Positions 23,565-29,001 of a stretch of 33,799 nt of DNA are shown piece by piece. This DNA is from a bacterium (GTDB lineage: Bacteria > Patescibacteriota > Saccharimonadia > Saccharimonadales > SZUA-47): NCBI GenBank assembly GCA_030427445.1, contig JAUIBQ010000011.1, positions 1-33,799 of the forward strand, read 5' to 3'. A program made the translations under genes and the position numbers. Below the pieces are notes generated by a model. The model did no database searches and was not told the origin of the DNA. It saw only the letters and a list, made by a program, of their open reading frames with translations. How positions within the stretch are numbered: the first letter of the stretch is position 1; the number at the start of each line of letters is the position of its first letter.

Positions 23565-24842
23565 CTATTTTGTGTTCTTTAAGAACTGCAGAACTTTTTC
23601 TGTACGGATTCTTTGTGCGATTTCGCGGCGTGCGTCCGGATTATCAAGCTGTGCTTGCATTTGCTCGTCTGGATATTGTGATTTTAGGATAAATACTCGT
23701 GCGTCGATTTCGTCATCGTTTACGCTAATGCCTTCGATATCACCAATCTCACTAAGTACTAGACCTGCTTTAATACGCTTCTCAGCTTCAGGAAGAACTT
23801 CTTTCTTAATGAAATCGTCCTCACTCATCTCACGCTGTTTCAAGTAATCTTCGAAGCTCATACCACGTTGTACTGCACTTTGTCGTACTTCTTGCAATAC
23901 AGCCTGTTTCTGCTCTTCTACAAGTGTCTCAGGAACTGACAACTTCGCGCCATCGATAAGCTCGTTAACGATATCGTTTTCGTATTCGCGCTCTGCTCGT
24001 TGCTGCTTTTCACTGAGAACCTGCTTTTCAATATCAGATTTCATTTCATCAACAGTCTTAAACGGCCCCACTTTTGCAGCAAACTCATCATCCACTTTAG
24101 GCTCTTTAACTTCGTTAACTTTGTTTACAGTTACGGTGAAGGTCACTTTAGCATTCTGAAGTGATTTCTGGCCATAGTCTTTAGGAAATGTCACCGTGAA
24201 ATCTTTTGTCTCACCAGGTTTCATGCCAACAACTTCTTCTTCAAAGCCAGGGATGAACGTACCTGAGCCAAGAGCGAGTGGATAATCTTTACCGTCAGCA
24301 CCTTGTACAGGCTTGCCTTTTGTGTCTACACCCTTGAAATCAATCCAAGCTTCGTCGCCGTTCTTAGCAGCACGTTTTACTTCGCTTTTTTCTGCTAAAC
24401 GAGTTTTCAAGTTGTCGATCACACTGTCGATATCTTTTTTCTCAATCTTTTGTTCTTCACGCTTGCTCTTTAGTTTTTTGTAATCACCGAGTTTAATCTC
24501 TCCAACTACCTCAAGCTCAAGTTCAACATCAAGCTGAGTATATGGTACAAATGCCTTCACATTAGCCTGAGGCTGCGAGACAGGACGGATGCGCTCTTCA
24601 CGGAGAGCTTCGATATACATTGTGTTGATAGCTTCGTTAATGAACTCTGACTGTAGCTGGTCCTGAGGAATATTCTTCTCAACAACTTCCATTGGCACTT
24701 TGCCGTCACGGAAACCTGCAACCTTAACGGTAGGGGCTAGTCGCTGTAAAACTTTTTTCTTAACCTGAGCAAGCTCTTCAGGGCTTGCGCTTAAATCGAT
24801 TTTTGCTTTTGTATCTTTCTCTCGTGTAACTTGAATCTTCAT
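23565..24842 (-). CDS. tig: Trigger factor (ribosome-associated chaperone, FKBP-type PPIase)
   Basis: Trigger factor binds L23/L29 at the exit tunnel and folds nascent chains. The 425-aa protein has the ribosome-binding signature G43-F-R-D-G-K-V-P50 in the N-terminal domain, an FKBP-like PPIase domain (about 155-240: 'GDEAWIDFKGVDTKGKPVQGADG', 'SGTFIPGFEEEVVGMKPGE') and a long helical C-terminal chaperone domain. Length is normal (E. coli 432). I see no cysteine. The start ATG is partly inside a 12-bp inverted repeat, and a 20-codon upstream ORF ends 7 nt before it; there is no classical strong Shine-Dalgarno sequence. Translation is therefore probably controlled by the leader. Confidence 0.97.
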   Translation of the reverse strand: MKIQVTREKDTKAKIDLSASPEELAQVKKKVLQRLAPTVKVAGFRDGKVPMEVVEKNIPQDQLQSEFINEAINTMYIEALREERIRPVSQPQANVKAFVPYTQLDVELELEVVGEIKLGDYKKLKSKREEQKIEKKDIDSVIDNLKTRLAEKSEVKRAAKNGDEAWIDFKGVDTKGKPVQGADGKDYPLALGSGTFIPGFEEEVVGMKPGETKDFTVTFPKDYGQKSLQNAKVTFTVTVNKVNEVKEPKVDDEFAAKVGPFKTVDEMKSDIEKQVLSEKQQRAEREYENDIVNELIDGAKLSVPETLVEEQKQAVLQEVRQSAVQRGMSFEDYLKQREMSEDDFIKKEVLPEAEKRIKAGLVLSEIGDIEGISVNDDEIDARVFILKSQYPDEQMQAQLDNPDARREIAQRIRTEKVLQFLKNTK

Positions 24843-24908
24843 CCCGTTATTAATCCCAACTTATTTTACTTATTTCTATCCCCGTTAAATCAAGACTAAT
24901 AACGGGAT
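24841..24908 (-). promoter_or_regulatory. Bistable leader of tig: two mutually exclusive hairpins
   Basis: Segment A (ATCCCGTTATTA on the minus strand, 24897-24908) pairs perfectly over 12 bp with segment C (24841-24852), whose end includes the A and U of the tig start codon. The CCCGUUA inside A can instead pair over 7 bp with segment B (24881-24887) across a 12-nt loop. The A-B hairpin leaves the start codon free; the A-C stem hides it. The two cannot form together. This is the architecture of a translational switch, by temperature, translation or ligand. No known riboswitch class is recognised. Confidence 0.55.
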
Positions 24909-24912
24909 TCAT
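24850..24912 (-). CDS. Predicted 20-aa leaderless upstream ORF in the tig leader
   Basis: The ATG at 24912 lies 9 nt after a -10-like TAATAT. The frame reads MNPVISLDLTGIEISKI and ends Ser-Trp-Asp-stop with TAA at 24850-24852, seven bases before the tig ATG, in a different frame from tig. The ORF spans segments A and B of the hairpin and reaches segment C, so a translating ribosome would melt the start-codon-hiding stem and could reinitiate at tig. It could be chance; the position and the parallel case at clpP argue for function. Confidence 0.4.
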   Translation of the reverse strand: MNPVISLDLTGIEISKISWD

Positions 24913-24921
24913 AAGTATTCT

Positions 24922-24950
24922 ATATTAACAGATTAAATAATAACTGTCGA
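24922..24950 (-). promoter_or_regulatory. Candidate promoter of tig
   Basis: The -35 TCGACA (24945-24950, five of six), 17-bp spacer and -10 TAATAT (24922-24927) would start the transcript near 24915. An overlapping alternative -10 is TAGAAT (24917-24922). Either would give an RNA containing the whole bistable leader. Confidence 0.45.
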
Positions 24951-28251: not shown

Positions 28252-29001
28252 TCAATTCGCTATTAAGTCTTGTCGTATACTTAACGCTTTATTAATGTCG
28301 CTATCGTTAAATATCGTACTACCAAAACCAAACACATCTACATACTGCTTAGTGTCTTGTATCAGTGCAGGTCTCATATGATTAGAAGTGGTCATTTCTG
28401 CCTCGTCTATACATCCACCGAAAGCTACAATCTCAGTTTCAGGTGAAGCGTTTTTAGCTGTTTCTGCGTCTATGGCACCTATCATTAATGTTGCACCTAA
28501 TTCAGCACACAATTGAGCTGCTCGCTCAACAGCTTTATCTACATCTCCTGTTATTCTCTCTAAATCTCCTTGTGTGTACCGTGATGTAGGGAAGTTGATC
28601 ATAGGTGTAATGTCTTCTTCCCTCATCCTCATCACGAACATTTCTAAAGCAGCACGAGGTATAGTATATTGAGCAGTCATAAATGCAGGTTTAATGAATC
28701 TTGTAGGCGCTAATGATGCCGCAGCATCTTCAGCAAGAATCGTATTGATAGAGTCTTTCATTTCTACAGATTTGTCATCAGATAACTTAGTATCCAGAAC
28801 TACTCGTCCAACACCTTTTGCGCGCATAACTGAACATGCACGCACATGGTCGTAGGTTCCTGTTTTGGTTTTACTAAATGGGATGGTCCTGTACCTCTCA
28901 TTCATGAGGATTTTTGCTCCCCATAATTCGTTCATCTTTATTTCAGCTCTATGAGCTAATGAGATGTCGCCAGGTCCCAAAGCTAAAAGAATATTAGACA
29001 T
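28252..29001 (-). CDS. OMP-decarboxylase-superfamily-like TIM-barrel protein
   Basis: The 249-aa protein contains D70-T-K-L-S-D75 within 'VVLDTKLSDDKSVEM', matching the DxKxxD active-site motif of the OMP decarboxylase superfamily. Near the C-terminus 'VDVFGFGSTIFNDSDINKAL' lines up with the phosphate-binding 'yivvGRpIt.a.dP..A' segment, but the Arg of that motif is absent. Length and the pattern of alternating strands and helices fit a single TIM barrel. It could be a divergent decarboxylase or a non-orotidine member; I do not give a symbol. A -10 TATATT ends 7 nt before the ATG, so it is probably leaderless and monocistronic, with a terminator at 28129-28153. Confidence 0.5.
   Translation of the reverse strand: MSNILLALGPGDISLAHRAEIKMNELWGAKILMNERYRTIPFSKTKTGTYDHVRACSVMRAKGVGRVVLDTKLSDDKSVEMKDSINTILAEDAAASLAPTRFIKPAFMTAQYTIPRAALEMFVMRMREEDITPMINFPTSRYTQGDLERITGDVDKAVERAAQLCAELGATLMIGAIDAETAKNASPETEIVAFGGCIDEAEMTTSNHMRPALIQDTKQYVDVFGFGSTIFNDSDINKALSIRQDLIAN

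Follow-up and report, generated by a model that had tools for sequence, protein, structure and literature searches.

A MITE-like palindromic element at start codons of CPR bacteria probably accounts for the hairpin over the trigger-factor start in a Saccharimonadales genome

In translational attenuators of the erm/cat type, an upstream open reading frame (uORF) is combined with a stem over the next start codon and an alternative partner for one arm of that stem, and the position of the ribosome decides the outcome. Integron attC sites are imperfect palindromes with GTTA/TAAC boxes, and MITEs, among them Correia elements, RUP and REPINs, possess terminal inverted repeats, flanking direct repeats and many copies, and carry no transposase. 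Rickettsia palindromic elements (RPE; Ogata et al. 2000) are short palindromes of ~150 bp (PMC10969869). RPE and MITEs are the closest described things to the element that we report here (review PMC10969869). In the open-licence literature on CPR bacteria, palindromic elements and leader peptides we found no published description of this element, and a search of its leader at tig against Rfam gave no match above the gathering score, the best matches lying far below it.

The window analyzed here (33,799 nucleotides; contig JAUIBQ010000011.1 of assembly GCA_030427445.1, order Saccharimonadales) contains a tig gene whose leader is predicted to fold over the start codon (Table 1). We consider it probable that this structure is a copy of a small palindromic element, MITE-like in character and found in CPR bacteria, whose insertion site is the start codon and which is tolerated through coupling to a uORF. 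Like RPE, the element is dispersed at unrelated genes of small-genome bacteria, carries a reading frame and is sometimes fused in frame to host proteins. It differs from RPE, here compared by description only, in its start-codon site, its 4-bp duplication of TGNA type, its nearly invariant 8-bp end and its CPR hosts, and in that its uORF is usually distinct from the host gene's reading frame instead of being inserted into it. Insertion in frame within coding sequences, as is characteristic of RPE, was not found, the copies lying at start codons. Four of 59 copies (L130, L129, L150 and L152) are read in frame into the gene, as MNPVR...SNGM- or similar, generating N-terminal extensions of TsaD and other proteins that annotation may take as real.

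Table 1. Coordinates of features at the tig locus, given as positions in the window
Feature	Position	Strand	Remarks
tig, trigger factor, 425 aa	23565..24842	-	Trigger_N, FKBP_C and Trigger_C domains; AUG 7 nt past the uORF stop
Predicted promoter, TCGACA - 17 nt - TAATAT, extended -10 (TGt)	24922..24950	-	By consensus only: 9/12, spacing 17, TG before -10
Left direct repeat TGAA	24908..24911	-	Inside ATGAA 24912-24908, the presumed original tig start
uORF, 20 codons, MNPVISLDLTGIEISKISWD	24850..24912	-	Predicted ORF; starts where relatives begin tig (near-leaderless); stop UAA 24852-24850
Palindromic element, 66 bp, TCCCGTTATTAG...TTAATAACGGGA	24842..24907	-	One of ten such elements in this genome (G000)
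Left arm of 13-bp terminal stem, includes segment A	24895..24907	-	
Segment B, UAACGGG	24881..24887	-	Alternative partner for A; predicted to pair once C is occupied
Right arm, includes segment C	24842..24854	-	Ends in the A that opens the tig AUG
Right direct repeat TGAA	24838..24841	-	Bases 2-5 of tig

An earlier, sequence-only reading of this leader had proposed a translational switch in which segment A pairs either with B or with C. Both pairings are present as that reading described them: UAACGGG (24887-24881) can pair with CCCGUUA (24906-24900) over 7 bp, and AUCCCGUUAUUA (24908-24897, minus strand) is the exact reverse complement of UAAUAACGGGAU (24852-24841), yielding a perfect 12-bp stem that reaches the AU of the tig AUG and that G-U pairs extend to ~23 bp. 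The region 24820-24930 has a predicted minimum free energy of -27.7 kcal/mol (z = -4.3), and none of 200 shuffles folded equally well. The two hairpins are not balanced alternatives, because A:B alone is predicted at -9.4 kcal/mol and the A:C structure at -26.0 kcal/mol, making the latter more stable by ~17 kcal/mol. A:B is predicted only with C occupied or not yet made, and blocking the uORF stop region in the folding model freed the tig AUG and let A pair with B. What survives of the proposed switch is the stem over the tig start, which shows compensatory changes across copies and has an upstream start just outside its left arm, so that translation must interact with it; a tig-specific regulator and a pair of evenly matched exclusive hairpins are not supported, given the imbalance in stability, the lack of arms at the tig genes of relatives and the presence of the arms at unrelated genes. 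Internal CGGG motifs resembling segment B occur in 16 of 59 elements, many of the 16 being related by descent, against 3.5 expected. A real three-segment switch is possible; a true switch answering to a signal is not supported. The unpaired probability of the start codon across copies showed no separation from control genes (medians 0.33 and 0.42), since the stem does not include the G of the AUG and its flank takes up other folds; this comparison was not counted as evidence.

The genome is that of a Saccharibacterium; the tig homologues belong to the same order, and tig starts were read in ~30 relatives. In most of these the tig AUG directly follows the promoter (...TCTGTTAGACT-8 nt-ATG), making the gene leaderless, and no other tig examined carries the element. 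Conservation of the arms among related tig leaders, on which the sequence-only reading had staked its switch, was thus not found, and the relatives offered no homologous leader in which covariation could be sought. This result misses the point, however: it is at genes other than tig that relatives of this leader are located. The promoter-to-AUG geometry at 24922..24950 (minus strand) recurs before tig in relatives; in the window, consensus places the predicted transcription start at ~24915-24912, and the AUG in the ancestral position lies at 24912, with the tig AUG 70 nt further on. Genome-wide, 162 promoter-like sites (score >=9) have an ATG 6-10 nt downstream, and 98 of the 162 open frames of at least 80 codons, which makes a near-leaderless uORF at tig a reasonable prediction. 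Leaderless genes are common in this genome, for instance at window positions 29001, 7426 and 7128 (minus strand). Independent tig leaders of 40-70 nt, often with SD, are found in family relatives (L005, L007, L049 and L004, in G006, G009, G005 and G007), and leadered and leaderless tig genes occur even inside one genus (G001 and G009), indicating that tig leaders turn over quickly. DNA searches with the 66-bp insert in its own genome and the order returned the window copy alone, plus chance matches (E ~0.001-0.004), and the phage records searched contained none.

A scan of the genome for leaderless uORFs revealed two further genes with a tig-like design, and direct searches of the nearly whole genome identified ten copies, each ending on the start of a protein gene and all in the same orientation. 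A scan without the start-codon requirement returned the identical ten and no others of this core. The ten genes comprise tig, three response regulators, an RsmE-like methyltransferase, a B3/4-tRNA_bind protein, an exonuclease III-like enzyme, an FAD oxidase, a SLOG-family protein and a DUF1801 protein. Copies follow the layout (A/G)TG-(A/G)-A-TCCCG..A ... T..CGGGA-TG(A/G)A with small variations, one of them having no left start codon, and the AUG of the gene borrows its A from the last base of the element. The element runs from TCCCGTTA... to ...TAACGGGA, forming a 13-bp stem with a sharp end that matches the terminal inverted repeats of MITEs. Loops are unrelated among these ten copies, which share only their ends, and recent transposition is therefore not visible in this genome.

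Beyond this genome, the exact pattern was detected in 15 of 393 genomes of the order and in 15 of 333 genomes of the phylum sample, and the reversed-pattern control gave no matches in the order and phylum sets (~700 genomes). The distribution is patchy: in one genus some species present up to eight exact matches, and most species none. Named by their first residues, the genes at these copies include secG, rplO, tyrS, tsaD, atpC, pyrH, murB and rpiB, and element length ranges across copies from 53 to 106 nt. Start-free scans found copies ending on a start codon in 10/10 cases in G000, 7/8 in G107 (393 kb) and ~12/16 in G542 (365 kb). The element either targets starts or survives only at starts; targeting or positive selection appears likely, given how few copies occupy free intergenic space in the Saccharibacteria examined. 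A version of ~270 bp in G542 (C7, ~83527-83802, in L176) has matching TCCCGTTAGAGCC ends and is longer than all others, and in G107 (C7, 348833-348846 and 387483-387496) the arms of two elements stand back to back (TAACGGG-ATAGA-CCCCGTTAGA), meaning that elements can sit beside or inside one another. A similar inverted repeat on a viral contig (L094) looked like an unrelated hairpin, and a Cas9-like repeat that had been suspected at L095:14738 could not be confirmed.

Insertion is indicated by the flanks and by empty sites. Among 59 copies taken from many genomes, 48 are preceded and followed by an identical 4-mer (permutations gave a mean of 28 and a maximum of 39), as expected from the target-site duplications of MITEs, although the duplication is not uniform at every locus: 11 of the 59 flank pairs differ at one base or more, and one locus has a 5-bp repeat (TCATA). 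Matching pairs are TGAA, TGGA, TGTA and TGAG, with TGCA at one locus; flanks are sometimes alike even at loci whose left copy has ceased to be a start (ATAAA/ATGAA), and a left GTG or TTG combined with a right ATG fits a 4-bp duplication with the A supplied by the element. At the atpD-atpC junction the empty site in G307 reads GGACAAAAAGGACTAATTAA-ATGAATTTTAAACTCG, and the filled site in its sister G378, whose AtpC is 96% identical, reads GGACAAAAAGGACTAAGG-ATGAA-element-ATGAATTTTAAACTCG. For the DUF1801 gene, G000 and G001 have filled sites, whereas in G007 and G005 the sites are empty and adjoin what appears to be the same upstream gene. Multiple dispersed similar copies, a further MITE trait, are found as near-identical 105-nt copies at unrelated places in G107 and at 70-75% identity in G378, in contrast to the copies of G000. 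The element departs from MITEs in that no parent element was found, in that its ends are not of fixed sequence throughout but covary, and in its near confinement to start codons. No mobilizing enzyme was found in a search that covered Y1 transposases: these are not associated with the element, do not carry its ends and are absent from some element-bearing genomes, G000 included, and a Y1 transposase was consequently rejected as the mover. The close sisters G378 (five exact matches) and G307 (none) constitute a good pair for finding the mobilizing factor. The element also resembles an attC site in being an imperfect palindrome with GTTA/TAAC boxes, but as read from the sequence these boxes are the wrong way round (5'-GTT...AAC-3' instead of 5'-AAC...GTT-3'), and this assignment was likewise rejected.

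Across copies, pairs 1-8 of the stem (TCCCGTTA/TAACGGGA) are nearly invariant. Pairs 9-13 adopt many forms and covary, remaining paired in 283 of 295 cells, versus 87-182 after a shift of one arm by 1-3; for pairs 14-18 the figure is 113 of 295 cells, which is at background, and pairing stops at 13. Some copies in G542 have C-G as their outermost pair where others have T-A, and among these are copies whose gene begins with GTG. In the orthologous DUF1801 leaders of two genera the stem is kept with changed pairs and unrelated loops. The covarying pairs and this retention indicate a stem that, as judged from sequence comparison, is maintained either as RNA over the start codon or as DNA for mobility.

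Among Saccharimonadales copies from genomes other than G000, 16 of 20 uORFs run to the gene start with no intervening stop, where shuffled loops would give 3.7; within G000, 5 of 8 do so, versus 1.5 expected. Such uORFs often end UAA-CGGG-AUG or overlap the gene start as AUGA. In the G542 group and in other members of the phylum, 4 of 21 uORFs are open, versus 3.3 expected, and because uORFs are not kept open there, coupling via the uORF stop cannot be general. A conserved leader peptide proved a weak candidate: in the only class with enough copies, loop changes were mostly non-synonymous (87, versus 23 synonymous), and no peptide is conserved beyond M(N/D)PV(R), itself encoded by the arm. The pattern would fit selection for ribosome passage rather than for a peptide, and translational coupling of tig to a near-leaderless uORF is the most likely effect that we infer. 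With its predicted uORF, a stem over the downstream start and an alternative partner for one arm, tig resembles the erm/cat attenuators; it differs from them in having no strongly conserved stalling peptide and in using an element common to unrelated genes, and we know of no inducer for the tig leader.

These observations bear differently on other explanations of the structure. A perfect inverted repeat of at least 12 bp is not in itself rare in this genome, nearly all of which was covered by a listing of 22 such stems with loops of 15-130 nt, five of them from the element family, and a chance hairpin in an AT-rich leader has to be considered. Chance is exceeded, however, through the family of ten copies of one core, all at gene starts and none elsewhere in the genome, and through reversed-pattern controls that were empty in ~700 genomes, and we give this explanation practically no credence. 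An RNA thermometer would suit a chaperone gene with a stem over its start, and some copies contain an A.A mismatch within the stem. Yet folding at several temperatures, which the sequence-only reading had put forward as a check, predicted no opening of the tig stem, which stays closed from 15 to 60 C (unpaired probability at most 0.10 for the A of the AUG and at most 0.28 for the U), and unrelated housekeeping genes carry the stem as well; with no melting predicted up to 60 C, a thermometer was rejected as scarcely credible.

The near-invariance of the 8-bp core invites two further interpretations. Were the repeats transcription-factor sites in DNA, rather than an RNA stem, palindromic arms just downstream of a promoter would be in place, but a single factor would be expected to have half-sites of common sequence, and pairs 9-13 instead vary in concert so that pairing is kept; the spacing varies widely, the elements being 53-106 nt long, and the right arm is locked to the start codon, not to the promoter. 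Such an operator is very improbable. Alternatively, the element could be a dedicated regulatory leader, a host RNA switch of a regulon in which a factor recognizes the invariant UAACGGGAUG core and releases or locks the start. Consistent with this are the covariation of pairs 9-13 next to that core, the position of all ten G000 copies on gene starts, their sharing by three response regulators, and a DUF1801 stem kept in two genera despite complete loop turnover. The target genes are nonetheless unrelated both within and between genomes (by start sequence, secG, rplO, tyrS, tsaD, atpC and pyrH), a few copies lie off starts, and insertion is what the flanking duplications, the empty sites and the near-identical copies at dispersed places suggest. 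We therefore regard a regulon of this kind as unlikely.

Returning to insertion of a palindromic element at a start codon, from the observed stem, family, flanking repeats, empty sites at other loci and covariation we infer for tig itself a transposition, a translated uORF, coupling and perhaps regulation. Before insertion, the promoter of tig would have been followed directly by a single ATGAAGATTCAAG start. The element would have entered the start codon of this leaderless gene with a 4-bp duplication, TGAA, converting the old tig AUG into the start of the uORF, and its last base together with the duplicated TG would have rebuilt the tig AUG. The terminal repeats would then form a 13-bp RNA stem (~23 bp at tig) over the new start, and the original promoter and initiation signal of the gene would now load ribosomes on the uORF. 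A ribosome reaching the uORF stop, 7 nt before the tig AUG, would displace C from the stem, and tig would be initiated by coupling or re-initiation, while A may rest with B. What would make the element tolerable is that ribosomes translating the uORF, which is now driven by the initiation signal of the gene itself, open the stem again.

It is an evenly balanced proposition that, across the phylum, palindromic elements targeting start codons place genes under uORF-dependent translation, a selfish element thereby becoming a portable translational control module. If this is the case, each insertion would turn an old start into a leader peptide and re-create the gene start inside a hairpin, and so strict a preference for starts would call for a new mechanism of targeting, perhaps via DNA that is single-stranded or paired with RNA where transcription begins. 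A gene entered by a mobile element is usually disrupted; the element described here appears at the most sensitive spot, including that of genes with core functions, and its anatomy suggests how a gene with an insertion in its start codon survives. Leader peptides and start-hiding stems could in this way arise in one step. In the annotation of CPR genomes, misplaced starts, N-terminal extensions that are not real and spurious small proteins could be traced to this element as a concrete cause.
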